Source: Alphaproteobacteria bacterium (GTDB lineage Bacteria > Pseudomonadota > Alphaproteobacteria > UBA828). Taken from it: a DNA stretch of 43,058 bases. Under the pieces are notes generated by a model. That model was not told the origin of the DNA. It ran no database searches and saw only the letters and a list, made by a program, of their open reading frames with translations. The stretch spans positions 1 through 43,058 of the forward strand of contig JAJDUK010000080.1 of the NCBI GenBank assembly GCA_022826665.1, written 5' to 3'. Below are positions 29,036 to 42,124 of this stretch, in pieces (the stretch's first letter is position 1; each line of letters starts with the position of its first letter). A program made the translations under genes and the position numbers.

Positions 29036-29629
29036 TCAGCCCTGCCGGTACTCCGCCATGGCGTCGAGCAGCCAGGTGGCCAGATAGACCGAGAACGAAT
29101 TGCGCACCGTGATCTCGTAGGACGGCGTGTCGTCAGTCTGGTGCAGAATCACGTTTGCCTTCGCCAGCGCGGTTTGCACGCAGGTGTTGGGCTTGAACGC
29201 TCGCGGGTGAAGGTCGAGGCGGCAGCCCTTCATCAACACCTCCCGCGCGCGCGGGCCCGAGAGCGCGAGCGTGGCGTACATGGCGCTCACGTCAGTCAAC
29301 GCGTGGTGGCGGCCGTCGAGGCGCCCCCGCAGCGTGTCATCGAGCTGAGCACCTTCCTCCGCCGGGCCGGTCACCAGCCACTCGTCGGGACCGAGCCAGA
29401 GCAAGATCTTGCCGTTGACGGTGGTGGCTGCGGTGTTTGGTGTGCGCGGCAACGACCCGCCAAGAATGGCGCCGGCGGCGGTGAGCGCCTCAACATCCTT
29501 CGGATCGATTCGGAGGTTGAAACGCGCACGCGCCGACCTGTCTGTTAGCGTCACGCCATCGGCGCGCGCGCCCGCGAGCGCGTCTGCAAGGCCCGCGAGC
29601 GGGCTGCGGGGTGCCGGCGCCTCAGCCAT
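29036..29629 (-). CDS. soxG: Sarcosine oxidase gamma subunit
   Basis: The small structural subunit (197 residues) of heterotetrameric sarcosine oxidase. It is recognised by [49 protein letters not shown] and [20 protein letters not shown] near the C-terminus, a folate-binding-like GcvT-related fold. The ATG at 29629 overlaps the alpha-subunit stop by 8 nt. It completes the order B, D, A, G. No folate genes (glyA, purU, folD) are attached, unlike many sox operons. Confidence 0.93.
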
Positions 29630-32627
29630 CCCGCTTGGCTCCTTCCGAGTCGTAGAACACCGGCTCGGTGATCTTGCAGGGCAGGAAGCCGGTCTCGGGC
29701 GCCGCATAGATGGTCTCGCCCTTGCGCGCCCGGCCGCCCTTCACCAGCGCGAGCGCGATGGAACGCCCCAATGTCGGGCTCGCGTAGCTCGATGTGACGT
29801 GACCGATCATCGGGATCGGCGGCTGCCCGCGCTTGTCCACCAGCTGCGTGCCTTCGGGTAGCACCTTCTTGGGGTCGTCGGTGAGGATGCCGACGAGCTG
29901 CTTGCGGTCCTCGCGCCGCGAGTCTTCGCGGTTCCAGGCGCGCTTGCCCAAGAAATCGGCTTTCTTCTTGGAGACGATCCAGTCCATGCCGAGGTCGTGC
30001 GGCGTGGTGGTGCCGTCGGTCTCCTGGCCCACGATGATGAAGCCCCGCTCGGCACGCAGCACGTGCATCGCCTCGGTGCCGTAGGGGGTGATGCCGTGCT
30101 CGGCGCCTGCCTCCATCAGGGCATCCCACAGGCGGCGGCCGTGGCTCCAGGGCACGTTGATCTCGAAGCTGAGCTCGCCGGTGAAGCTGATGCGGAAGAC
30201 GCGGGCATTCACGCCGGCGACGACGCCCTCCTTCACGCTCATGAAGGGGAAGGAGTGGGCATCCAGCGCCATCTCCGGCGCCAGCGCAGCCAGCACGTCG
30301 CGGGCGCGTGGGCCGGCCAGCGCCACCGTCGCCCACTGCTCGGTCACCGAGGTGCAGTAGACCTTGAGCTCCGGCCACTCGGTCTGCAGCCATTCCTCGA
30401 GCCATTCCAGCACGTGGGCCGCGTTGCCGGTGGTCGTCGTCATCAGGTAGTGGTTCTCGCCGAGGCGCGCGGTGGTGCCGTCGTCGAAGACCATACCGTC
30501 GTCGCCGCACATCAGCCCGTAGCGCACCCGGCCTACCTTCAGCGTCGAAAAGGCGTTGGTGTAGACCATGTCGAGCAGGGTCGTGGCGTCGGGCCCCTTG
30601 ATGTCGATCTTGCCGAGGGTGGAGGCATCGAGGATACCCGCAGCCTCCCGCACCGCCCGGCATTCGCGCGCCACCGCCGCGTGCTTGTCATCGCGCCGCT
30701 TGGGATACCACCAGGGCCGGTGCCACTGGCCCACGGGCTCGAACACCGTACCTGCGGCCTCGTGCCACACGTGCATCGCCGTGCGCCGCACCGGGTCCAT
30801 CAGCGCGCCGGTATCGCGCCCGGCGAGCGCGCCGAAGGTGACCGGCGTATAGGGCGGGCGATAGGTGGTAAAGCCCACCTCGGGCACCGTCTTGCCCAGC
30901 GCATCGGCAAGGATGGCAAGCCCGTTGACGTTCGCCGTCTTGCCCTGGTCGGTGCCCATGCCGACGGTGGTGTAGCGCTTGACGTGCTCGACCGACCGAA
31001 AACCCTCGCGCGCGGCGAGCCGGATATCCGCCGCGGTCACGTCGTCCTGGTGGTCGACCATGTGCTTGGCCTTGCCGTGGCCGAGCGGCTTCAGCCCCGG
31101 TGCGAGCCAGTAGGGTGTGATGGCGCCGGGCTCAGGTGCTTCGACCGGCGGTGCCGGCGGCGGCGTGCCATCGCCGAAACCCGCCGCCTCGGCCGCGCGC
31201 GCGCCGATGGCGGCCCCCTCCGCGAGACAAGCGGCGAGGCCAAAGCTGCCGTTGGCGGCGCCCGCGACTTCCAGTGCTTGCGTCGCGGTGCCGGGGAGGA
31301 AGATGCCCCGCGCCTCTTCGTAGGTGAGCTTGCCGGCCGACTGGCTGAAGAGATGCACCGCCGGGTTCCAGCCGCCGGAGACCAGCACGCTGTCGCAGAA
31401 GATGCGGTATTGCTCGCCGCTGAGCCCGCCATCCCCGTCGAGCTTCGCAACGGTGACGGAGCGCACCCGCTTCGTCCCGTGAGTGGCGGCGATGGCCGAG
31501 CCGGTGTGGAGCGCGACGCCGGCCTCCTTGAGCGCAGGCGCCAGCGGCGCCGCGGGCTCGGGCCGGCAATCGACCACGGCGCCGACCGTGCCGCCCGCCT
31601 CGACGATGTCGTGCGCTACCTCGTAAGCCGCGTCGTTGTTGGTAAACAGCACCGCGCGCTCGCCCGGCAGCGCCGCGTACTGGTTGAGGTAGCGCTGCGC
31701 CGCCGAGGCCAGCAGAATGCCGGGGCGGTCGTTGTCGGCGAACACCAAGGGCCGCTCATGGGCGCCGGTGGCGAGCACCACCCTGCCCGCCTTGATGTTC
31801 CAGAGGCGCTGACGGCTCGTGCCGGCCGGCGCGCCCGGCCCCAGGTGGTCGGTGCGGCGCTCGAACGCGCTCAGCGAGTTGTGGTCGTAGTAGCCGAAGA
31901 GCGTGGTGCGGGTGAGGACGCGGACCTCCTCCATCGCGGCAAGACGCCCGGCCGCCGCTTGGGCCCAGGCCGCGCCGTCGACGCCATCGACTCTGTGGCG
32001 CAGGCCCACCAGGGCGCCGCCGAGGGTCGCCTCGTCGTCCACCAGCATCACCCGCGCGCCGGCCTCACCGGCGGCGAGCGCCGCGGAGATGCCCGCCGGG
32101 CCGCCGCCCACCACCAGCACGTCGCAGTGGATGTTCATCTTGTCGTAGGAGTCCGGGTCGGGCGCCTCCGGCGCGCGGCCGAGCCCCGCCATCCGCCTGA
32201 TCGCGGGCTCGTAGAGCGACTTCCAGAAGGACGCCGGCCAGAGGAAAGTCTTGTAGTAGAAGCCGGCGGGGAAGAGCGGCGCGAGCCGCCCGGTCCAGGC
32301 GGCGAGGTCGCAGTTGGCGCTCGGCCAGGCGTTGACGCCGGCGGCGGTGAGCCCGTCGTAGAGCTCGACCTGGGTCGCACGCAGGTTGGGCTCCGTCCGT
32401 GCGCCTTCGCCGAGTTGCACCAGTGCGGACGGCTCCTCCGCGCCTGCGGTGAGGATGCCGCGCGGCCGGTGATACTTGAAGCTGCGGCTGGTCAGGTGCG
32501 TGCCGCTCGCGATCAGCGCGGACGCCAGCGTATCGCCGGCATAGCCCTCGTAGCTCCGCCCGTTGAAGGTGAAGCGGAGGCGCTGCGCCCTGTCGATCCG
32601 CCCACCCTCCTTGAGACGAAAGCGCAC
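29622..32627 (-). CDS. soxA: Sarcosine oxidase alpha subunit
   Basis: A 1001-residue large subunit that binds NAD+ and, in its C-terminal half, tetrahydrofolate. In order: a 2Fe-2S-like N-terminal domain fold (RFTFNGRSYEGYAGDTLASA), a Rossmann domain (VVGGGPAGISAALAAGEAGA at about 150), the pyridine-nucleotide region, and a GcvT-like aminomethyltransferase domain over the last 380 residues (GILDASTLGKIDIKGPDA...). Formaldehyde from sarcosine is normally passed to tetrahydrofolate there. The start is GTG 32627, sharing a base with the soxD stop (TAGTG). The enzyme makes glycine, H2O2 and 5,10-methylene-THF. Confidence 0.95.
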   Translation of the reverse strand: MRFRLKEGGRIDRAQRLRFTFNGRSYEGYAGDTLASALIASGTHLTSRSFKYHRPRGILTAGAEEPSALVQLGEGARTEPNLRATQVELYDGLTAAGVNAWPSANCDLAAWTGRLAPLFPAGFYYKTFLWPASFWKSLYEPAIRRMAGLGRAPEAPDPDSYDKMNIHCDVLVVGGGPAGISAALAAGEAGARVMLVDDEATLGGALVGLRHRVDGVDGAAWAQAAAGRLAAMEEVRVLTRTTLFGYYDHNSLSAFERRTDHLGPGAPAGTSRQRLWNIKAGRVVLATGAHERPLVFADNDRPGILLASAAQRYLNQYAALPGERAVLFTNNDAAYEVAHDIVEAGGTVGAVVDCRPEPAAPLAPALKEAGVALHTGSAIAATHGTKRVRSVTVAKLDGDGGLSGEQYRIFCDSVLVSGGWNPAVHLFSQSAGKLTYEEARGIFLPGTATQALEVAGAANGSFGLAACLAEGAAIGARAAEAAGFGDGTPPPAPPVEAPEPGAITPYWLAPGLKPLGHGKAKHMVDHQDDVTAADIRLAAREGFRSVEHVKRYTTVGMGTDQGKTANVNGLAILADALGKTVPEVGFTTYRPPYTPVTFGALAGRDTGALMDPVRRTAMHVWHEAAGTVFEPVGQWHRPWWYPKRRDDKHAAVARECRAVREAAGILDASTLGKIDIKGPDATTLLDMVYTNAFSTLKVGRVRYGLMCGDDGMVFDDGTTARLGENHYLMTTTTGNAAHVLEWLEEWLQTEWPELKVYCTSVTEQWATVALAGPRARDVLAALAPEMALDAHSFPFMSVKEGVVAGVNARVFRISFTGELSFEINVPWSHGRRLWDALMEAGAEHGITPYGTEAMHVLRAERGFIIVGQETDGTTTPHDLGMDWIVSKKKADFLGKRAWNREDSRREDRKQLVGILTDDPKKVLPEGTQLVDKRGQPPIPMIGHVTSSYASPTLGRSIALALVKGGRARKGETIYAAPETGFLPCKITEPVFYDSEGAKRDG

Positions 32628-32923
32628 TATCCGCCCTCCGCCTCGTCGCCCGGCGCATCGGGCCTGGGCGTGCCCATGGGATAGATCGTGAGCACGTCGT
32701 TGCTGACGGTGTCGCGCAGCGCGTTGAACCAGCGCCGGCAGCCTTCCCGGTGCATCCAGCGCTCGGCGTGGACGCCCTTCGGGTTGCTCCGCATGAAGAG
32801 ATAGTCGCCCCAGCCGGCATCGTCGGTCGTCGCCGGGTCGGGGCGTGCGATGTGGGCCTCGCCACCGTAGCGAAACTCGGATTCCGGCCGCGCGCCGCAC
32901 CAGGGGCAATCGATCCAGAGCAT
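32627..32923 (-). CDS. soxD: Sarcosine oxidase delta subunit
   Basis: The 98-residue zinc-binding subunit. CPWCGARPESEF at the N-terminus and HREGCRRWFNALRDT supply the Cys/His ligands, and TIYPMG near the end is usual for SoxD. It starts at ATG 32923, 10 nt after the soxB stop, and overlaps soxA by one base. Confidence 0.95.
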   Translation of the reverse strand: MLWIDCPWCGARPESEFRYGGEAHIARPDPATTDDAGWGDYLFMRSNPKGVHAERWMHREGCRRWFNALRDTVSNDVLTIYPMGTPRPDAPGDEAEGG

Positions 32924-32933
32924 TCCGCGCTTC

Positions 32934-34184
32934 CTAGTGCGCCACGGCCGCCGCCGCGTGCTCGTCGATGAGCGCGCCGGAGGTGAAGCGGTCGAGCGCA
33001 AAGGGCGCGTTGAGCGGGTGCGGCTCGCCGGTCGCGATGGTGTGGGCCAGCACCCAGCCCGAGCCCGGCGTCGCCTTGAAGCCGCCGGTGCCCCAGCCGC
33101 CGTTGATGAAGAGACCTTCCACCGGGGTCTTGCCGATGATGGGCGAGGCATCGGGGCAGACATCCACGATCCCGGCCCAGGAGCGCATCATCCGCACCCG
33201 GCTGAAGATCGGGATCAACTCGACGATGGCCCCCATCTGGTCCTCGATGGTGTGCAGACCGCCGCGCTGGCTATAGGAGTTGGGCGGGTCGAGGCCGGCG
33301 CCGATCACGAGCTCGCCCTTGTCGGACTGGCTGACGTAGACGTGCACGCCGTTCGACATGATGACGCAGTGAAGCACCGGCTTGAGCGGCTCAGAGACCA
33401 GCGCCTGCAGCGGGTGGCTCTCGATCGGCAGCCGGAAGCCCGCCATCGCAGCCAGCACCGAGCTATGCCCCGCGACCACGATGCCGACCTTCTTCGCGGC
33501 GATCGTGCCTTGCGTGGTTTGCACGCCGGTCACCCGGCCGGCTTCCACGTCGATGCCGGTGACCTCGCAATTCTGGATGATGTCGACGCCGCGCGCGTCC
33601 GCCGCCCGCGCGTAGCCCCAGGCGACCGCATCGTGGCGTGCGTTGCCGCCTCGTCGCTGCAGGGTGCCGCCCATGATCGGGTAGCGCGTCTTGGGCGAGG
33701 TGTTGAGGATCGGGCAGAACGCCTTGACCTCCTCCGTGGACAGCAGCTCGGCATCGACCGCGTTGAGCCGGTTGGCGTTGACCCGCCGGGTCGCCTCCTG
33801 CAGATCGTGGACGTTGTGGATCAGGTTCAGCACGCCCCGCTGGCTGAACATCAGGTTGTAGTTCAGTTCCTGTGCGAGGCCTTCCCACAGCTTGAGCGAG
33901 TGCTCATAAAGCGCCGCGCTCTCGTCCCACAGATAGTTGGAGCGGATCACCGTGGTGTTGCGGCCGGTGTTGCCGCCGCCGAGCCAGCCTTTCTCCAGCA
34001 CCGCCACATTGGTGATGCCGTGGAGGGCGGCGAGGTAGTAGGCGGTCGCCAGCCCGTGTCCGCCGGCGCCGATGATGACCACATCGTAGGCTGGCTTCGG
34101 TGCAGGGCTCCGCCACTGCTCCGGCCAGTGCTCGTGGTGGCTCAGCGCGTTGCGCGCCAGGCTGAAGATCGAGAACTTTTTCAT
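32934..34184 (-). CDS. soxB: Sarcosine oxidase beta subunit
   Basis: A 416-residue flavoprotein of the DAO family that oxidises sarcosine and carries the FMN shuttle. The FAD-binding GxGxxG is at 39-44 (GAGGHG). His184 in [12 protein letters not shown] is the residue that corresponds to the covalent FMN ligand of known enzymes. [17 protein letters not shown] near the C-terminus belongs to the second flavin-binding motif. It is the first gene of soxBDAG, divergent from the CoA-binding gene over 142 bp. Confidence 0.96.
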
Positions 34185-34326
34185 TTGCGCGTGCCCGAAT
34201 ACAGGAACCGCGCGGCCGTGTCACTCGCGCCGGTTGGACGAATCCCCGTGTGCGTCTTGACGGGCTGCGGCCGGGGGGCTACTTGTGCGCCTCACGCACC
34301 CCCGACAGCCGCACGGATCTCTCACG

Positions 34327-34878
34327 ATGGTCGATGTCGCGATCAAGTCGACGGACGGGCACCCGCTCGTCTTCCTGCCCGAGCACGACGGCTACGCCGA
34401 CGATTACCTGCGCACCATCCTCCGAGGGGTGAAGACCTTCGCGATGGTGGGCGCCAGCACTCAGTGGCGCCGGCCCAGCTTCTACGCCATGAAGTATCTG
34501 ACCAAGAAGGGTTATCGGGTGATCCCCATCAACCCGGGCCGGGCCGGCGAGACGATCCTGGGCGAGACGGTCTACGCGAGCATCGCCGAGTGTCCCGATA
34601 AGCTCGACATGGTGGATATCTTCCGCACCTCGGAGGAGGCGCTGGATATCACCAAGGACGTCATCGCGAACAAGGATGAGAAGGGCATCGGGGTGCTGTG
34701 GATGCAGCTCACGGTGCGCAACGACCACGCCGCGCAGCTCGCCGAAGAGGCCGGGCTCACGGTCGTCATGAACCGCTGCCCCAAGATCGAGTTCGCCCGA
34801 CTCTCGGGCGAGCTGAGCTATAGTGGCATCAACTCGCGGATCGTATCCGCCAAGCGGGCAAGGCCGCTCAACGCATGA
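34327..34878 (+). CDS. CoA-binding (YccU-like) protein
   Basis: A 183-residue protein with a Rossmann-type CoA_binding_2 domain: FAMVGASTQWRRPSFYAMKYL near 38-58, GYRVIPINPGRAGETILGE, and the C-terminal MNRCPKIEFARLSGEL with the family Cys. Related proteins bind CoA but their role is unclear. The start at ATG 34327 is the family start; a longer frame to 34285 has no support. It overlaps the sulfhydrylase gene by four bases (ATGA), a pairing seen in other proteobacteria. Confidence 0.88.
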   Translation: MVDVAIKSTDGHPLVFLPEHDGYADDYLRTILRGVKTFAMVGASTQWRRPSFYAMKYLTKKGYRVIPINPGRAGETILGETVYASIAECPDKLDMVDIFRTSEEALDITKDVIANKDEKGIGVLWMQLTVRNDHAAQLAEEAGLTVVMNRCPKIEFARLSGELSYSGINSRIVSAKRARPLNA

Positions 34879-36200
34879 ACGAGATGCAACCCCTCAAGGC
34901 GGAGGCTGACAAGGCCGCGCCGCAACGCGAGTACGGGATAGAGACGCTGGCGGTCCACGCCGGCGCGCGGCCCGACCCGGTCACCGGTGCGCGGACGACG
35001 CCGATCTATCAGACCGCGGCCTACGCTTTCGACGATGCCGACCACGCGGCCGAGCTCTTCAACCTGCAGACCTTCGGCTACATCTATTCGCGCATCACCA
35101 ACCCCACCGTCGCCGTGCTCGAGGAACGGGTCGCGGCGTTGGAGAACGGACGCGGCGCCGTGGCGGCTGCCACCGGCCACGCGGCGCAGTTCCTGTTGGG
35201 CGCGACGCTGCTGGAGAGCGGCGACGAGTTCATCTCGTCGAACAATCTCTACGGCGGCTCGGTCACCCAGTTCGGCCTGAGCTTCAAGAAGCTCGGCTGG
35301 ACCTGCCACTTCGTCGACATGACGGAGCCCGAGAACGTCGAGCGGGCGATGACCGACAAGGTCAAGTTCGTCTTCTGCGAGGGGCTGGCGAACCCCGGCG
35401 GCATCGTGCTCGATCTCGAAGCGATCGCCGAAGTCACGAAGCGCCACGGCGTGCCGCTCATTGTCGACAACACGATGGCCTCACCCTATCTCTGCCGGCC
35501 CTTCGAGCACGGCGCCGACCTCGTGGTCCACTCGACCACGAAGTTCATCGGCGGCCACGGCAATACCATGGGCGGCATAGTGGTCGAATCCGGCCGCTTC
35601 GACTGGTGGCAGAACGACAAGTTCCCGAGCATGACCAAGCCGGACCCTGCCTATCACGGCCTCACCTTCGCCGAGACCTTCGGCGATTTCGGCTTTACCA
35701 TGAAGATGCGCGCCGTGGCGCTGCGGGACTATGGCCCGAGCATGGCTGCGCAGGCGGCCTGGAACTTGCTGCAGGGGGTAGAGACGTTGCCGCTCCGCAT
35801 GGAGCGCCACTGCTCGAACGCGCTCGCGGTCGCCAAGTATCTGGAAGACCACCCCAAGGTCTCCTGGGTTTCCTACGCCGGGCTGAAATCGAACCGCTAT
35901 TACGAGCTCGCCCAGAGATACCTGCCGCGCGGTGCCGGTGCGGTCTTCACCTTCGGCGTCAAGGGCGGCTACGAGGCCGGGCTCAGGGTGGTCGATACCG
36001 TCAACATGTTCTCGCACCTCGCCAATATCGGCGACACGCGGAGCCTGATCATCCACCCGGCGTCCACCACCCACCGCCAGCTCTCCGACGAACAGAAGTC
36101 CAACGCCGGCGCTGGGCCGGACGTGGTGCGACTCTCCGTGGGCATCGAGAGCATCGACGACATCATCGCCGACCTCGACCAGGCCCTCGATCAGGCCTGA
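34875..36200 (+). CDS. O-acetylhomoserine/O-acetylserine sulfhydrylase family enzyme
   Basis: A 441-residue PLP enzyme of the Cys/Met metabolism family, MetY type. SRITNPTVAVLEERVAALE, the PLP-pocket Asp198 (IVDNTMASPYLCRP) and Schiff-base Lys223 in HSTTKFIGGHG are present. The long C-terminal half with FGVKGGYEAG and HPASTTHRQLSDEQ matches MetY rather than MetB. It joins sulfide (or a thiol) to O-acetylhomoserine. Cystathionine-type lyases are the alternative. It is translationally coupled to the upstream CoA-binding gene. Confidence 0.9.
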   Translation: MNEMQPLKAEADKAAPQREYGIETLAVHAGARPDPVTGARTTPIYQTAAYAFDDADHAAELFNLQTFGYIYSRITNPTVAVLEERVAALENGRGAVAAATGHAAQFLLGATLLESGDEFISSNNLYGGSVTQFGLSFKKLGWTCHFVDMTEPENVERAMTDKVKFVFCEGLANPGGIVLDLEAIAEVTKRHGVPLIVDNTMASPYLCRPFEHGADLVVHSTTKFIGGHGNTMGGIVVESGRFDWWQNDKFPSMTKPDPAYHGLTFAETFGDFGFTMKMRAVALRDYGPSMAAQAAWNLLQGVETLPLRMERHCSNALAVAKYLEDHPKVSWVSYAGLKSNRYYELAQRYLPRGAGAVFTFGVKGGYEAGLRVVDTVNMFSHLANIGDTRSLIIHPASTTHRQLSDEQKSNAGAGPDVVRLSVGIESIDDIIADLDQALDQA

Positions 36201-36223
36201 CGCATTGATCTAAGGGAAGATTT

Positions 36224-37000
36224 CTAAGGGCTTGGGGGCGCCTTGCCTTCGGGCTTCGTCGGTGCGCCTGCGCGGTCGCGGGCGGCGAGCAGGCCGCGGC
36301 AGAGTGCGCCGTTGAATTCCATGGCGATGCGGACGCTCGCGAGCGTGCGCAGATGCTCGTCGAAGCCCGCTTCGGTGAGCGGTGCACCCTCCGCCGTGAC
36401 GAAGGCGCGGTCGTCCAGCCCGGCCGGACCGCCGACGCGACCCCTCATCTCCAGGTAGCGGCGCTGCAGGCCGGCACCCTCGGGTCGGGCAACGGCGGTG
36501 CGCGCCAGTGCTTCAACGGTCATTGCCACCAATGCAGCCTTGTCGAAACCTTGGGCCAGCAGGGCGCGCAGCAGAGCCTCCTGCCGCCCCTGAAACGCCT
36601 TGTGCCGAAAAGTCGTACGCAAATTTGCAAGGGAGTCGTCGTCCCCCGCCTCGCCGAAGGCGGCGCCAAAGGCGAGGCCCTCGGCGACCCCTCGATTGAC
36701 CTCGTCCGCGCACATGTGCTCCCGCAGGCGCGGAACCACGCGAGTCACCCACGGCAGTGAGGCAACGGCATCGCGCATGTCCTCGGCCATCATGTAGGCG
36801 AAGTTCGCGGCGCACCAAAAGGTCGGCAGGCGGAAGTCGATGGAGACCGCGCCGTCCGCGCCGACCGTCACCTCCTCCACGAAGCCCAAATCGGTCACCG
36901 GCTCGTCGAGCTCGGGATCAGTGACGGCAGCCAAGCAGGCCAGAACCTCAGCCTCGCGCCCGGCCTCGGCCGCGCCGTCACGCGTACTCATGGGCCGCAT
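36224..37000 (-). CDS. DUF59 (MIP18/SufT-like) iron-sulfur assembly-type protein
   Basis: A protein of 258 residues; the N-terminal 110 form the DUF59 domain: VTDPELDEPVTDLGFV, FRLPTFWCAANFAYMMAEDM with a conserved Cys, and PWVTRVVPRLREHMC. The remaining 130 residues are an alpha-helical extension that belongs to a subgroup found with an amidohydrolase beside binuclear-iron (propane/phenol-type) monooxygenase genes, where both are thought to help maturation. No monooxygenase genes are in the window. ATG 37000 or 36991 are possible starts. It follows the amidohydrolase gene by 13 nt and is convergent with the sulfhydrylase. Confidence 0.75.
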   Translation of the reverse strand: MRPMSTRDGAAEAGREAEVLACLAAVTDPELDEPVTDLGFVEEVTVGADGAVSIDFRLPTFWCAANFAYMMAEDMRDAVASLPWVTRVVPRLREHMCADEVNRGVAEGLAFGAAFGEAGDDDSLANLRTTFRHKAFQGRQEALLRALLAQGFDKAALVAMTVEALARTAVARPEGAGLQRRYLEMRGRVGGPAGLDDRAFVTAEGAPLTEAGFDEHLRTLASVRIAMEFNGALCRGLLAARDRAGAPTKPEGKAPPSP

Positions 37001-37013
37001 CCGCCGCGCCGGC

Positions 37014-38012
37014 CTAACTCCAGAGCTTCGCCTTGGCCGCGTCGATATCGATGTCGTAGAGCCGGGCCGCGTTGAGCCCGAGAATCTTCCGCTTCACCTC
37101 GGGCGTGAGGTCAACGCCGCGCTCCTGCTTGATGTCGTCGGGAAGCTCGAAGGACCAGAACTTCTCCACCAGCCACTTGGGCGTCCAGATGGCGTAGTCG
37201 CTCGCAAAGGTGAGCTTGTCCTCGCCCACCCAGAACAGGAGCTCGGCGATCACCTCGGCGAAGTAGCGCGGGCGCGCGTGCATGAAGGGCATCACCACGG
37301 CGAGCCCGCCCCAGACGTTCTCCTCCTGCACGGCGATCCAGCAGAAGTCGTCGAGCCGCGGCAGGCCGACGTGCTCGACGATGAATTTGAGGTTGGGGAA
37401 GTCGGTCGCGGCGTAGTCGACGTCGTGGCAGTCGAAGGCGTCCTTGGCCAGCGGCGTGATGGTCGGCCCCTTGTGGACGTGCATGTTGGTGATGCCGAGC
37501 TTCTCGCAGAGCTCGAAGCAGCGATAGGCCTCGGTGTCGTTGAGCCGCCAGCCGCGCGAGGCGCCGCGCCATTCGGCCGTGTAGAGCTTCACGCCCCTGA
37601 TGCCGTAGGCCTCCTTCAGCGCGTGAATGTGCTCCAGCGCGGCCGTGCCCTCGCGGGGGTCGAAGGAGCCGTTGAGGATGAAGCGGTCCGGGTGCTCCTG
37701 CGTGATGACTGCGTTCTGCTCGGTGGTGTTGAAGCCCTCGATATAGAATTCCTTGAGGTAGGTCGGCTGGATGATCGCCATGTCCACCGGCCCGTCGACG
37801 AAGAGGTCGCGAACCATCGTCTCCGCGTCGTACTTCTCGAACTTCTCCTTGGGCCAGACCTCCTGCTCGGGGCTGAGCGCGCTGTGGTAGGCATAGAAGC
37901 AGTCGATGAACTGCTTGCCGTGGATGTTGCGCTGGTTGGCCGGCGCGGCATCCCAGAAGTGGGTGTGCCCGTCGACGACGAACAGTTCCTCCCCGTCGCT
38001 GGTCCTGTACAT
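37014..38012 (-). CDS. Amidohydrolase_2 family (TIM-barrel) hydrolase/decarboxylase-type protein
   Basis: A 332-residue metal-dependent TIM-barrel protein. The first metal-binding HxH is His16/His18 in VDGHTHFWD; further ligands are HVHKG near 155, VEHVGLPR and the late FASDYAIWTP Asp. The opening segment YRTSDGEELFVVDGHTHFWD and NQRNIHGKQFIDCFYAYH resembles the amidohydrolase encoded in mycobacterial propane monooxygenase clusters more than hydrolases of soil catabolism. The start at 38012 matches that N-terminus. It is the leading gene of the amidohydrolase and DUF59 pair and diverges from the cyclase gene over 143 bp. Confidence 0.8.
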   Translation of the reverse strand: MYRTSDGEELFVVDGHTHFWDAAPANQRNIHGKQFIDCFYAYHSALSPEQEVWPKEKFEKYDAETMVRDLFVDGPVDMAIIQPTYLKEFYIEGFNTTEQNAVITQEHPDRFILNGSFDPREGTAALEHIHALKEAYGIRGVKLYTAEWRGASRGWRLNDTEAYRCFELCEKLGITNMHVHKGPTITPLAKDAFDCHDVDYAATDFPNLKFIVEHVGLPRLDDFCWIAVQEENVWGGLAVVMPFMHARPRYFAEVIAELLFWVGEDKLTFASDYAIWTPKWLVEKFWSFELPDDIKQERGVDLTPEVKRKILGLNAARLYDIDIDAAKAKLWS

Positions 38013-38155
38013 CACCTGCTCCCCTCGGCTGCGACCGAGGGCGAGGGTAGCCGGGCCCGCGCCAAACACAAGCCGCGATGCGGGAGGCGATATGGCGCGC
38101 ACACGGCGCCGCTGATAAGCTTGCGGAAGCGCGGAACGAGAGGGGAGATCCGGGG

Positions 38156-38860
38156 ATGGCTGAGCGGATGGTCGACCTGACGTTGACGCTGACCGACAAC
38201 ATGCCGGCGCACAAGCTGTTCCAGCGCCCGGTCATCGTGCCCCACTACACCCACGAGCAGACCCGCGAGCAGTTTTTCCTGGGCGTGGAGAACGACAGGC
38301 TCTCCTTCGCCACCACCTACATGGGCATGATCGACCACATCGGCACCCACGTGGACGCGTTCTATCACGTCAATCCCGAGGGCGCGCCGGTGGACCAGAT
38401 GCCGCTCGACATGTTCATGGGCAAAGCGGTCTGCTGGGACCTGACCTACGTTCCCGATCTCGGCGACATCGACGTGGCGGACTTCGAGAAGGCGGAGGAG
38501 AAGGGCGGCGTCAAGGTGGACGGCCACATCGTCCTGCTCAACACCGGCCTCCACAATCGCCACTACCCGGACGTGAAGTCGGTATGGAGCAACCCCGGCA
38601 TCACCGAAGCCGCGACCCACTGGCTCGCGGATCGCGGCTCCAAGCTCCACGGCGTCGAAGGCCCGTCCACCGACAAGCCTTCCGATAACCTCTTCCCCAA
38701 CCACCGCGTCTGCCGCGACCGCGGCATCGCCCACTACGAGTGGCTCATCAACCTCGAAGAGCTGATCGGCAAGGGCGAGTTCATGTTCTACGGGCCACCG
38801 ATCAAGATCGGCAACGGCAGCGGCGCGCCGGTGCGCGCCTGGGCGATCCTCGACGAATAA
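38156..38860 (+). CDS. Cyclase/kynurenine formamidase-family metal hydrolase
   Basis: A 234-residue member of the cyclase family. The metal site HxGTHxDxxxH is HIGTHVDAFYH at 61-71, where the Pro usually found at position 69 is Phe. Members include kynurenine formamidase, isatin hydrolase and creatininase-unrelated cyclic amide hydrolases. The later segment VEGPSTDKPSD matches the group. It starts at ATG 38156 with GGGGAG eight bases before. It heads a four-gene plus-strand run with CobW, amidase and isochorismatase. Confidence 0.88.
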   Translation: MAERMVDLTLTLTDNMPAHKLFQRPVIVPHYTHEQTREQFFLGVENDRLSFATTYMGMIDHIGTHVDAFYHVNPEGAPVDQMPLDMFMGKAVCWDLTYVPDLGDIDVADFEKAEEKGGVKVDGHIVLLNTGLHNRHYPDVKSVWSNPGITEAATHWLADRGSKLHGVEGPSTDKPSDNLFPNHRVCRDRGIAHYEWLINLEELIGKGEFMFYGPPIKIGNGSGAPVRAWAILDE

Positions 38861-38898
38861 GCCCACATCGCCGGCGATCGCAGCCGGGTGAGGCGCCG

Positions 38899-39984
38899 AT
38901 GACCCGCATCGACGACCGCTCGGTCGACGAGCGCATCCCCATCACCCTGCTCACGGGTTTCTTGGGCGCCGGCAAGACCACGCTGGTGAACCGGCTGCTC
39001 AGCGCGCCCGACGCCGGCAAGATCGCGGTCATCGTCAACGAATTCGGCGAGATCGGGATCGACGGCGACCTCATCGCGCGCGCCAACGAGGACATGCTGG
39101 AGCTCACCAACGGCTGCATCTGCTGCGCCGCCCAGGGCGACCTGATGGACGGGCTCAACCGGCTCTTCCTGCGCAAGATCGGCCTCGCCGAGCCCCAGGT
39201 GGACTTCGACAAGATCGTGATCGAGACCACCGGCATCGCCGACCCCTCGCCGCTGGCCCGGCTCTTCTACACCGACATGAAGCTCGACCTCACCTTCCGC
39301 CTCGACGCGGTGCTGACGGTGGTGGACCTGAAGCACGTGACCGGCCAGATCGCGCGCTCGCCGGAGGCACAGAAGCAGATCGCCATCGCCGACAAGCTCA
39401 TCTTCAACAAGCGCGACCTGGTGGACGACGACGAGTTCGCCGCGGCCGTGGCGGCGGTCGAGCGCCTCAACCCCTTCTCGGTCAAGGAGGTCACCACGCA
39501 CGGCGCGCTGCCGGTGGAGCAACTGCTCGACCTTGACCTGTTCGAGCCCAAGCGGCGGGACGACATGGTGGGCGCCTGGATCGGCGCCGACCGATCAGAC
39601 ACCGATCACGCGGCCGACGATCATGCCCACGACGATCCCGTCCACACGCCGGGCGTCGGCGCGGTCTGCCTGCAAACCCATGAGCCGCTGGAGTGGAACG
39701 CGCTGCTCCGCTTCTTCCTGGAGCTCACCGAGGAGAAGGGCGAGGACCTCTTCCGCGTGAAGGGCATGGTGCATTTCCAGAACGTCGAGAAGCCGGTGAT
39801 CATCCAGGGCGTGCAGGCCACCTTCAGCCCGCCCACCTATGCCGAAGCGTGGCCGCGCGGCGAGGTGGCGACGCGGATCGTCGTGATCGGCCGCAACCTC
39901 GACCGGGCCTCAATGGAGGAGCGGTTCGCGGCCTGCGTGGCGAAGCGCGAGACCGTGCTCGACCGCGGAATCGGCGCGATCTGA
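38899..39984 (+). CDS. CobW/COG0523 family GTPase (metal insertase type)
   Basis: A 361-residue G3E GTPase that loads metal (Zn, Co or others) into partner enzymes. GTP motifs are GFLGAGKTT (20-28), the conserved NGCICC (71-76) with the metal-binding CxCC, IVIETTGIADP, and NKRDL (170-174). A His/Asp-rich linker follows at about 233-250 (DHAADDHAHDDPVH), then the CobW C-terminal domain. The start follows the cyclase stop by 38 nt with a weak GTGAGG. Its place between two hydrolases suggests it serves the cyclase, whose active site needs a metal. Confidence 0.93.
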   Translation: MTRIDDRSVDERIPITLLTGFLGAGKTTLVNRLLSAPDAGKIAVIVNEFGEIGIDGDLIARANEDMLELTNGCICCAAQGDLMDGLNRLFLRKIGLAEPQVDFDKIVIETTGIADPSPLARLFYTDMKLDLTFRLDAVLTVVDLKHVTGQIARSPEAQKQIAIADKLIFNKRDLVDDDEFAAAVAAVERLNPFSVKEVTTHGALPVEQLLDLDLFEPKRRDDMVGAWIGADRSDTDHAADDHAHDDPVHTPGVGAVCLQTHEPLEWNALLRFFLELTEEKGEDLFRVKGMVHFQNVEKPVIIQGVQATFSPPTYAEAWPRGEVATRIVVIGRNLDRASMEERFAACVAKRETVLDRGIGAI

Positions 39985-40009
39985 GCGACCATCCGAGCAG
40001 GAGCCATCC

Positions 40010-41404
40010 ATGAGCTTTGCCTACATGACGGCGACCGAACTCAACGGCCTGCTGGCGGCGCGCGACATCTCGCCGGTGGAGCTGGTGGAGGACACGCTCA
40101 GCCGTCAGGAGGCGCTGGAGCCCCAGATCAACGCCTTCGTCACCCGCACGCCGGAAGTCGCGCTGGAGGCCGCACGCGACGCGGAGTATGCCATCGCCGC
40201 GGGCAAGGCCGGCGCGATCGCGGGTCTGCCCACCTCGGTCAAGGACCTGGTGGCGATGGCGGGCGTGCCCTGGACCTTCGGCTCCCGCCCCTTCGCCAAC
40301 AACGTGCCGGACTTCGACGCGCCCGCGGTTGAGCGGGTCAGGGCCGCCGGCGGCTGCATCGTCGGCAAGTCCACCACCAGCGAGTTCGGCTGCAAGGCGG
40401 TCTGCGACAGCCCGCTCACCGGGATCACCCGCAACCCGTGGAACCTGGCGAAGACATCCGGCGGCTCCAGTGGCGGCGGGGCCGCGAGCGTCGCCGCCGG
40501 GCTCACGCCCTTTGCGGTCTGCACCGATGGCGGCGGCTCCGTGCGAATTCCGTCCGCGCTCTGCGGGCTCTTCGGCATCAAGGGGCAGTTCGCGCGGGTG
40601 CCGGTGCACCCGGTCTCGGCTGCCCCCACCCTCGCCCACGTGGGCGCGATCGCGCGCACGGTCCGGGACGCCGCGTTGCTGCTCGGCGTCATGGCAGGCC
40701 ACGACCGCCGCGATGCCTTCGGCGTCGCCGAGCCCGTGCCGGATTTCGTTGCCGCCTGCGATGGGGACGCAAAGGGCATGCGCATCGCGTGGAGCTCCAC
40801 CCTAGGCTACGCCGAGCCCGAGCCCGAGATCGCGGCCCTTTGCGAGGTCGCTGCCCGGCGTTTCGAGGCGCTGGGGTGCGAGGTGGAGGTGGTCGAAGAC
40901 GCGCTGGGCGATGACCCGGTCGAGATCTGGATGGCGGAGTTTTACGGCGGCATCGGCACCAAGCTGAAGGACCTGATGGCGGAGCGGCCGGATGAGCTGG
41001 ACCCCGCCGTGGTCGAGACGCTGAGCGGCGGGCTCGACCGCTCGATGGTGGACTATTTCGGCCAGCTCTTCGCCCGCTACGAGTTCCGCGAGAAGATGCG
41101 CCAGCTCTTCGAGCGCCACGACCTGCTGCTCTCGCCGACGCTGCCGTGCGCCGCCTTCGACGTGGGCCTCGACACGCCGCCGGGGCAGGGGGCGCGCAAC
41201 ATCGTCTCCTGGGTCTACTACACCTATCCCTTCAACCTGACCGGCCAGCCGGCGGCCTCGATCCCGGCGGGCTTCACCAAGGCCGGGCTTCCTGTCGGCT
41301 TGCAGATGGTGGCCGGCATCAATCGCGAGGTCGACATCATGCGCGCAGCCGCCGCGTTCGAGGAAGCGGCACCCTGGGCCGGCCGCCGGCCGCCTCTGGC
41401 CTAG
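40010..41404 (+). CDS. Amidase-signature hydrolase
   Basis: A 464-residue amidase-signature enzyme with the full triad: Lys78 (PTSVKDLVA), Ser153 (TSGGSSGGGAA) and nucleophile Ser177 (CTDGGGSVRIP). It has the size of GatA/AtzF-like amidases but no GatB or GatC beside it. It differs clearly from the amidase at 15171, which is longer at the N-terminus. It hydrolyses an amide, with substrate unknown. It lies 25 nt after the CobW gene and 33 nt before the isochorismatase-family gene, probably in one operon. Confidence 0.92.
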   Translation: MSFAYMTATELNGLLAARDISPVELVEDTLSRQEALEPQINAFVTRTPEVALEAARDAEYAIAAGKAGAIAGLPTSVKDLVAMAGVPWTFGSRPFANNVPDFDAPAVERVRAAGGCIVGKSTTSEFGCKAVCDSPLTGITRNPWNLAKTSGGSSGGGAASVAAGLTPFAVCTDGGGSVRIPSALCGLFGIKGQFARVPVHPVSAAPTLAHVGAIARTVRDAALLLGVMAGHDRRDAFGVAEPVPDFVAACDGDAKGMRIAWSSTLGYAEPEPEIAALCEVAARRFEALGCEVEVVEDALGDDPVEIWMAEFYGGIGTKLKDLMAERPDELDPAVVETLSGGLDRSMVDYFGQLFARYEFREKMRQLFERHDLLLSPTLPCAAFDVGLDTPPGQGARNIVSWVYYTYPFNLTGQPAASIPAGFTKAGLPVGLQMVAGINREVDIMRAAAAFEEAAPWAGRRPPLA

Positions 41405-41437
41405 CCCGCCGGACAGCGCACAACGACGGAGGTGGCG

Positions 41438-42124
41438 ATGCCGCTGGATGACAAGGTCCGCGAGGCGCTGGACACCATCTTCTCGGGCGACTCCGGGCTC
41501 TACAGGAACCGCGGGTGGAACCAGCGCTCGGGCTTCGGCACGCGGCCCGCGCTCCTCAACATCGACCTCGCCAACGCCTGGACGCGACCGGGCTACCGCT
41601 TCTCCTGCGATGACATGGACGAGCGCATCATCCCCGGCGTGCAGCGTCTGCTCGAGGCCGCCCGCGCCAAGCGTATCCCGATCGTCTACACGACGACCGC
41701 CTTCTGCAGCCGCTTCGACATGGGCGCGTTTCCGCTCAAGAAGCCCTTCGAGGACCTGATGCTGGGCTCGCCGGCCACCGAGATCGACGACCGCGTCGCG
41801 CTGGAGGACGGCGTCGACACGCTGATCGTCAAGAAGCGTCCGAGCGCCTTCGCCGGCACCCATCTCGGCGGCATCCTGCGTGCCGGCGGCATCGACACGC
41901 TGATCTGCACTGGCGTCACCATGGCGAGCTGCGTCCGGCACACGGTGGAGGACGCGCTGGGCGAGGGCTTCCGCACCGTCCTGGTGCGCGAGTGCGTGGG
42001 CGACCGCGTGCCCGCGGCCATCGAGTGGAACCTGTTCGACCTCGACATGAAGTACTGCGACGTCGAGCCGCTCGAACGGGTGCTGGCCTACCTCGCCGAG
42101 CTGGAACCCTTCGAAGAGCGTTAG
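41438..42124 (+). CDS. Isochorismatase-family hydrolase, N-carbamoylsarcosine amidohydrolase-like
   Basis: A 228-residue cysteine hydrolase. The triad Asp43 (LLNIDLANAW), Lys133 (VKKRPSAFAGT) and nucleophile Cys165 (GVTMASCVRHTVEDA) is spaced as in N-carbamoylsarcosine amidohydrolase. This enzyme releases CO2 and NH3 from N-carbamoyl amino compounds. An ATG at 41438 with GGAGG five bases upstream is preferred over GTG 41432. Its stop overlaps by three bases the stop of the convergent pcm gene. Beside sarcosine oxidase, this is the strongest hint for carbamoylsarcosine use, but other isochorismatase-fold activities are possible. Confidence 0.85.
   Translation: MPLDDKVREALDTIFSGDSGLYRNRGWNQRSGFGTRPALLNIDLANAWTRPGYRFSCDDMDERIIPGVQRLLEAARAKRIPIVYTTTAFCSRFDMGAFPLKKPFEDLMLGSPATEIDDRVALEDGVDTLIVKKRPSAFAGTHLGGILRAGGIDTLICTGVTMASCVRHTVEDALGEGFRTVLVRECVGDRVPAAIEWNLFDLDMKYCDVEPLERVLAYLAELEPFEER

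Follow-up and report, generated by a model that had tools for sequence, protein, structure and literature searches.

An amidohydrolase-fold protein coupled to a DUF59 protein, apart from any monooxygenase operon, in an alphaproteobacterial family

The window analysed here is the whole of one contig (C19, JAJDUK010000080.1, 43,058 nucleotides) from an alphaproteobacterial genome of the UBA828 lineage (GCA_022826665.1). It carries, on the minus strand, a gene for an amidohydrolase-fold protein (AMH) and, directly downstream, a gene for a DUF59 protein; in other bacteria the two genes occur in operons of propane-type diiron monooxygenases. The linkage between the AMH and DUF59 genes was found to be tighter than the linkage of either gene to a monooxygenase. 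In our best reading, with a probability of roughly 45%, the two genes would form a self-contained unit, in which AMH is an enzyme and the DUF59 protein is its dedicated carrier of iron or iron-sulphur clusters (Fe-S), with AMH itself as the client. Because the bond within the pair was the strongest regularity, and because pair and monooxygenase were found to dissociate in both directions, this reading was favoured over maturation of a monooxygenase in trans. The two genes are arranged as follows.

37014..38012, minus strand: AMH, 332 aa, ATG at 38012; PF04909; metal-site residues H16, H18, H180, H214 and D272
37001..37013, minus strand: gap of 13 bp from the AMH stop to the DUF59 start, DUF59 being downstream of AMH
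36224..37000, minus strand: DUF59 / FeS_assembly_P protein, 258 aa; N-terminal PF01883 domain at residues 16-88, all-helical extension at residues 98-245

The presence of both genes on the minus strand at these positions, reported by a first-pass annotation made from the sequence alone, was confirmed. In Pfam, AMH matched PF04909 over residues 13-321 with an E-value of 2.9e-51 (175.4 bits against a cut-off of 26.4), and the DUF59 protein matched PF01883 over residues 16-88 with 4.6e-14. Conserved residues of the DUF59 protein were D28-P29-E30 and C63 in the domain, and C234 in the helical extension. The short spacing suggests that the two genes share one transcription unit. The ratio of nonsynonymous to synonymous substitution rates (dN/dS, Nei-Gojobori) against four congeners was 0.02-0.12 for AMH and 0.15-0.21 for DUF59; these low values indicated that both are under purifying selection and are thus real genes. 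In NCBIfam, no model matched AMH, and the DUF59 protein scored 31.7 bits with PaaD, for which the cut-off is 180, and was likewise far below the cut-offs of the SUF models.

Relatives of AMH were collected with one genome per species; 553 were confirmed, of which the best 80 were analysed. By gene-family table and tblastn, a propane-type operon surrounded 74 of these 80. The alpha subunit was present in 71 of the operon loci, two loci on cut contigs (L039 and L049) showed the beta subunit, and a 3-kb contig (L057) showed GroEL only. The operons contained alpha subunit, reductase, beta subunit, coupling protein, AMH, DUF59, GroEL and often an alcohol dehydrogenase. The AMH of the window was 69-78% identical to those of loci L011-L086, 74 of which lie in operons, which upheld the annotation's view that the pair is orthologous to the accessory pair of propane/phenol monooxygenases. 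DUF59 followed AMH, at a distance of at most 210 bp, in 79 of the 80 relatives. Six relatives (L007-L012) had no operon; five of them come from the window's family, and L009 is close to it, with an AMH 98% identical to that of the window and partly the same surroundings.

The window's family was surveyed in 21 genomes, and 16 of the 17 other AMH loci were read (G019 was left out). AMH was present in 18 of the 21 genomes, in full length in 17 of the 18; the AMH-negative genomes G006, G017 and G020 were 62-84% complete. DUF59 adjoined AMH, again at no more than 210 bp, in 16/16 loci, and tblastn detected propane-type alpha, propane-type beta, operon GroEL or toluene-type alpha in none of the 16. 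The neighbours of the pair differed by genus (the single g3 locus spanned only 5.2 kb), and the conserved part was the pair alone. In these and the other loci read, open reading frame calls were approximate in length and in some starts, and neighbours without a search of their own were named by eye. In the window itself, tblastn at 1e-12 gave no match for propane-type alpha or beta, toluene-type alpha or operon GroEL, in line with the annotation, which saw none of the monooxygenase subunits. The annotation had left room for a monooxygenase cluster just outside the window, and this was ruled out by the flanks of the relatives: searches of L007-L012 with the same queries found none of these genes, with 10 kb kept on both sides of L007, L008, L009 and L012, 5 and 10 kb around L010, and 10 and 3.5 kb around L011.

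According to the annotation, the pair serves either a distant monooxygenase or another client, and the genome should be inspected for prmABCD/mimABCD homologues. Diiron monooxygenases were indeed found elsewhere in the genome, with six PF02332 hits on four contigs: C74 and C89 each have an alpha and a beta subunit, C68 has an alpha and C57 a lone beta. In the PDB, the C74 alpha subunit was closest to toluene/o-xylene monooxygenase (1.3e-187), with weaker matches to phenol hydroxylase (2e-36) and methane monooxygenase (1.4e-18). The alpha subunits on C89 and C68 were 54% and 53% identical to the C74 subunit. Judged from these similarities, the three alpha subunits of the genome are toluene-type; for comparison, the operon alpha of another alphaproteobacterium (G365) best matched methane monooxygenase (1.2e-63). 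Among the family hydroxylases that were classified, a part of the PF02332 hits, no propane-type enzyme turned up. The operon (MimG-type) GroEL was also absent: the genome has four GroELs, two with groES and two lone and divergent, and their identity of 33-45% at best rules out an operon-type GroEL elsewhere in the genome. Other DUF59 genes of the genome belong to the SUF operon and to an Mrp-type ATPase. The annotation's alternative therefore stands in a sharper form, the distant enzymes classified being toluene-type. Because the pair reaches well beyond monooxygenase operons, another client, possibly AMH itself, is at least as likely as a distant monooxygenase.

Some features of these monooxygenases and chaperonins were recorded separately. 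The lone divergent GroELs (L141:7486-9156 on C49 and L142:7867-9462 on C57) had no GroES called alongside, and both lay within a few kb of a hydantoinase A/B-like pair, identified by eye; they are possibly private chaperonins. On C57, a lone toluene-monooxygenase beta-type gene (L094:9462-10454) was found next to a thiolase-like gene, with no adjoining alpha called. In genus g6 of the family, toluene-type alpha genes occurred in tandem, two in one cluster (L130:9281-12920 and L131:5205-8942).

The reverse case, a monooxygenase without the pair, was found in a class sample of 385 genomes, in which AMH was called at 1e-60 and PF02332 over its cut-off. AMH was detected in 6/385 genomes, five of the window's family and G365 with a linked operon, and PF02332 in 23/385. 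Loci of 11 of the 17 PF02332-positive, AMH-negative genomes were read (G099, G158, G188, G256, G284 and G390 were left out). Seven of the 11 had a toluene-type alpha subunit, 42-55% identical to that of the family. Another of the 11, G047, had the propane-type enzyme (L166:6357-12363): an alpha subunit (74%) together with genes for reductase, beta subunit, coupling protein and GroEL. At E 0.01 the two stretches read, including the 16-kb L166, gave no match for AMH, DUF59 or an operon-type alcohol dehydrogenase, and AMH was absent genome-wide at 1e-60. Furthermore, G401, from another family of the same order and 79% complete, had two toluene-type alpha subunits and no AMH at 1e-30. Since the dissociation runs both ways, in G047 and in the window's family, propane-type monooxygenases and the pair do not depend on each other in an obligate manner, and the pair is no fixed component of these enzymes. 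The Mycobacterium enzyme is reportedly active in E. coli with its GroEL and without the amidohydrolase-DUF59 pair.

Plasmid records extended the range of the pair further. Among the best 40 of 113 AMH matches in these records, DUF59 adjoined AMH in 17/17 records with an AMH identity of at least 50%, and of the 15 records read (all but NZ_CP049318 and NZ_CP121653), 10 had a monooxygenase adjoining the pair. In Halomicrococcus, Halorarius, Peribacillus and Rhizobium N324, no monooxygenase was found on the plasmid record that carried the pair, the record alone being covered. DUF59, AMH and an alcohol dehydrogenase stood together in Thermomicrobium and two haloarchaea (L144:7249-10153, L147:6863-9853 and L148:6865-9881), with no monooxygenase within the annotated stretch. 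The alcohol dehydrogenases of these three were 42-59% identical to the operon enzymes; one unlike enzyme of Gemmobacter (25-29%) was set aside.

Remote relatives of AMH kept the same company. A shorter DUF59 adjoined AMH in 11 of 12 plasmid records with remote relatives, and the twelfth (L205), annotated as a 249-aa piece, had no DUF59 alongside. The six annotated stretches contained genes for short-chain dehydrogenase/reductase (SDR), aldehyde dehydrogenase, AMP-binding or thiolase proteins and no monooxygenase, and of the 11 replicons with DUF59 eight were searched, seven of which were without PF02332. On the replicon of R. oxybenzonivorans several PF02332 genes were present, more than 100 kb from the AMH-DUF59 pair. 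In still remoter AMHs of Shinella and Ensifer, a NifU-domain protein (PF01106) stood in the place of DUF59, its start overlapping the AMH stop (2/6 such records read).

L204:8001-9304 and L220:3803-5118: AMH with an overlapping NifU-domain gene, in Shinella and Ensifer

The Shinella record contained no PF02332. In Haloterrigena, whose PF04909 match was more remote still, neither DUF59 nor NifU was annotated alongside. That two unrelated iron-sulphur families stand beside one AMH clade points to AMH as the fixed partner. AMH itself would then be the client, with the DUF59 protein supplying or guarding its iron. Its reaction may be a catabolic step common to propane-type operons, next to their alcohol dehydrogenase, and to several unrelated pathways, and propane-type operons would have recruited, not invented, the AMH-DUF59 couple. 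A wider form of this proposal is that a PF04909 clade always has its own iron-sulphur carrier as an obligate partner, mostly DUF59 and in some cases NifU, and constitutes an iron-dependent system of its own, spread from haloarchaea to actinobacteria and recruited into propane operons; in this full extent it is doubtful.

The active site of AMH was compared in an alignment. We take H16, H18, H180, H214 and D272 to be metal ligands. In 113 rows of the close group, H16 was kept in 113, H18 in 111, and H180, H214 and D272 in 112 each; the only row without the last three was the frameshifted AMH of G010, a genome of the family. The predicted model of AMH (pLDDT, a per-residue confidence score, 87.7) was a triosephosphate isomerase (TIM) barrel. 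It was nearest to 3irs (Z 26.1), followed by ACMSD and PF04909 decarboxylases (Z about 20-22) and, lower down, by dinuclear oxygenases such as SfbO (Z 19.3); metal-dependent decarboxylases and hydratases were matched at Z 19-26. Among sequences of solved structures, no match was found at 0.001, and the best profile hit was again 3irs (E 0.0026). The model of the DUF59 protein (pLDDT 91.4) scored about equally with CIAO2B (Z 11.9) and with DUF59 structures from bacteria (Z 11.2), which was regarded as a tie. No fold was found for its helical extension, the matches of this whole-protein search lying mostly over the DUF59 domain.

Published work is cited here and below from the portions of text available to us. 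Amidohydrolase-related dinuclear oxygenases have been defined as a class (PMC10811679), with the pattern D-x-H in strand 1 and D-x-x-H-x-D/E in strand 8, for example D25, H27, D337, H340 and D342 of AibH2 (PMC7782822). AMH shares the Pfam family and the fold of AibH2, SfbO and PtmU3 (Z about 19-20 to SfbO and kin), a group that has iron-dependent members, but it lacks their ligand pattern: strand 1 reads H16-x-H18, D272 is present, and the positions of the second metal are I275 and T277. AMH as a dinuclear oxygenase of this type was therefore ruled out. Moreover, PF00355 detected no Rieske gene in the ten window genes scanned, within 29625-42121. The ACMSD-like PF04909 decarboxylases, hydrolases and hydratases have the TIM barrel and the HxH, His, His, Asp set in common with AMH, which differs from them in having a DUF59 neighbour at nearly all of its loci. 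An Fe-S cluster held by cysteines of AMH was also ruled out, because no conserved cysteine set extends beyond the close group.

In the AMH tree, which was rooted for drawing only, several of the deep splits are open, and long branches come together. The window's clade joined the alphaproteobacterial operon clade with 93/97 support, the operon clade itself having 96/87, and genera g4 and g5 of the family fell apart from the window's clade (92/93). That the AMH copies of the family occupy two places in the tree is suggestive only, and the starred branches are compatible with one origin for the family. The remote AMH group formed one side of a branch (100/100). The close group had an unresolved base, where the unlinked AMHs of Thermomicrobium and the haloarchaea were placed. 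The tree is consistent with, and no proof of, a couple that is older than its place in propane-type operons.

Among known systems, the pair of the group V propane/phenol operons (prm/mim) is nearest, with orthologous proteins in the same order and with the same tight spacing. Unlike it, the window pair is without adjoining prmABCD, operon GroEL and alcohol dehydrogenase, and monooxygenases of other types are present in trans. In Mycobacterium smegmatis the operon pair is MSMEG_1975-1976, and MSMEG_1970-1979 were tabulated together under carbon limitation (PMC5445863). The amidohydrolase and iron-sulphur cluster assembly genes of such an operon have been described (PMC6849523), and a figure legend of PMC9213486 points out both of them in the gene layouts of monooxygenases. 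The annotation's statement that such pairs help maturation found no support, as no demonstration for the AMH-DUF59 pair was found, and the heterologous-expression evidence cited in the available text of PMC6849523 concerns GroEL. GroEL also occurs with another monooxygenase (PMC11057499). Mycobacterium sp. AT1 resembles the window in that the amidohydrolase and its neighbour, a protein given as unknown, lie away from the monooxygenase, with which GroEL stays; it differs in that an alcohol dehydrogenase moved along with them and the propane-type enzyme is still in the genome (PMC6849523), neither of which was found for the window pair. The DUF59 protein shares with PaaD and CIAO2B/SufT the domain with DPE and Cys and the fold of CIAO2B and bacterial DUF59 proteins, and differs from them in its helical extension of about 150 residues, its partner amidohydrolase and its score far below the PaaD cut-off. 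No publication on the amidohydrolase-DUF59 couple was found by title or abstract among the open-access papers searched, although PMC9213486 marks both genes under other words; the available portion of PMC10401708 does not mention DUF59.

Several observations weigh against AMH as the client of its DUF59 neighbour. The principal one is that AMH and diiron enzymes still occur together where their genes are unlinked: PF02332 was present in 6/6 AMH genomes of the class sample against 23/385 overall, though five of these six belong to one family and the sixth has the linked operon. One propane-type locus (L034) has AMH without DUF59. In the close group, H18 is missing in Peribacillus (L149) and Rhodococcus (L153), the latter within an operon. 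In nine remote rows the H16 column holds V (8) or S (1) and the D272 column G (8) or E (1), and the Shinella row, of the NifU type, has A and E at these columns. Consequently, if DUF59 loads the metal of AMH, the site must have been remodelled; since H18, H180 and H214 were kept in 10/10 remote rows and a His was gained at the T277 column in 10/10, it looks remodelled, not erased. Nor does AMH as a whole possess a cysteine set suited to an Fe-S cluster, C38 and C224, and partly C169, being conserved in the close group only. Finally, Thermomicrobium has a toluene-like monooxygenase (43% to the family alpha) about 370 kb from its pair on the same replicon.

In the main rival explanation, the pair would act in trans and insert or guard iron in the toluene-type hydroxylases of the family; in the operons it would do the same for the propane-type enzyme. 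We consider this quite possible. Besides the unlinked Thermomicrobium pair and the 74 operon loci among the best 80 of 553 relatives, the family survey speaks for it: PF02332 hydroxylases were present in 18/21 genomes and coexisted with AMH in 15/21, always on different contigs (15/15), and G010, the sole family genome over 90% complete (94%) without PF02332, carries a frame change in AMH (L129:3517-4499) that may reflect a real loss or an assembly error, its DUF59 aligning throughout. By analogy, the DUF59 protein PaaD, of unknown function, is indispensable in vivo for the diiron enzyme PaaABCE (PMC4498308). Nevertheless, the toluene-type hydroxylases of seven AMH-negative genomes and of G401 do without the pair, as does the propane-type enzyme of G047; conversely, G004 (88% complete) has a full-length AMH in an intact pair and no PF02332, and remote AMH-DUF59 pairs sit in catabolic clusters on replicons mostly free of PF02332. 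A further genome without PF02332, G011, was 67% complete.

Service to a third metalloenzyme, for instance of a neighbouring operon, or in general iron stress, appears improbable. The remaining features around the pair are as follows.

38013..38077, no strand: intergenic region that separates AMH from the divergent cyclase operon; it would be longer with an internal ATG as the cyclase start
38078..42124, plus strand: cyclase (PF04199), CobW GTPase, amidase and isochorismatase genes, observed next to the pair only in the window's genus

On the other side, a sarcosine oxidase operon occupies 29036-34184 of the window. CobW proteins are metal-handling GTPases, which was counted in favour of such a role, and within the window's genus most of the loci read have the cyclase-CobW-amidase and sarcosine oxidase operons adjoining the pair. 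However, neither neighbour was seen beside the pair in the family's five other genera, so that the cyclase-CobW neighbourhood noted by the annotation was observed in the genus only and a role tied to it was ruled out; the genome also already has its SUF-operon and Mrp-type DUF59 proteins. It is very unlikely that a propane-type operon was lost and left the pair behind as a relic without function. The missing operon genes and the frame change of G010 would agree with a relic, but the selection data (AMH dN/dS within the genus) largely refute it, and AMH was full-length in nearly all AMH-positive family genomes, including those of 2.1-2.4 Mb. The two tree places of the family's copies also argue against a relic, though one origin is possible.

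Propane/phenol-type monooxygenases are sought for bioremediation and oxidation chemistry, and lineages with the pair apart from the enzyme, or the enzyme apart from the pair, are natural tests of function. If AMH belongs to a clade obligately paired with its carrier, the operon pair, long depicted as an accessory of the monooxygenase, would represent an enzyme in its own right within the pathway. With AMH as the client, a missing pathway step would be at hand, as would an amidohydrolase of a new kind, supplied with iron; if it is not the client, the pair would act in trans as a maturation factor and may be usable for other diiron enzymes.

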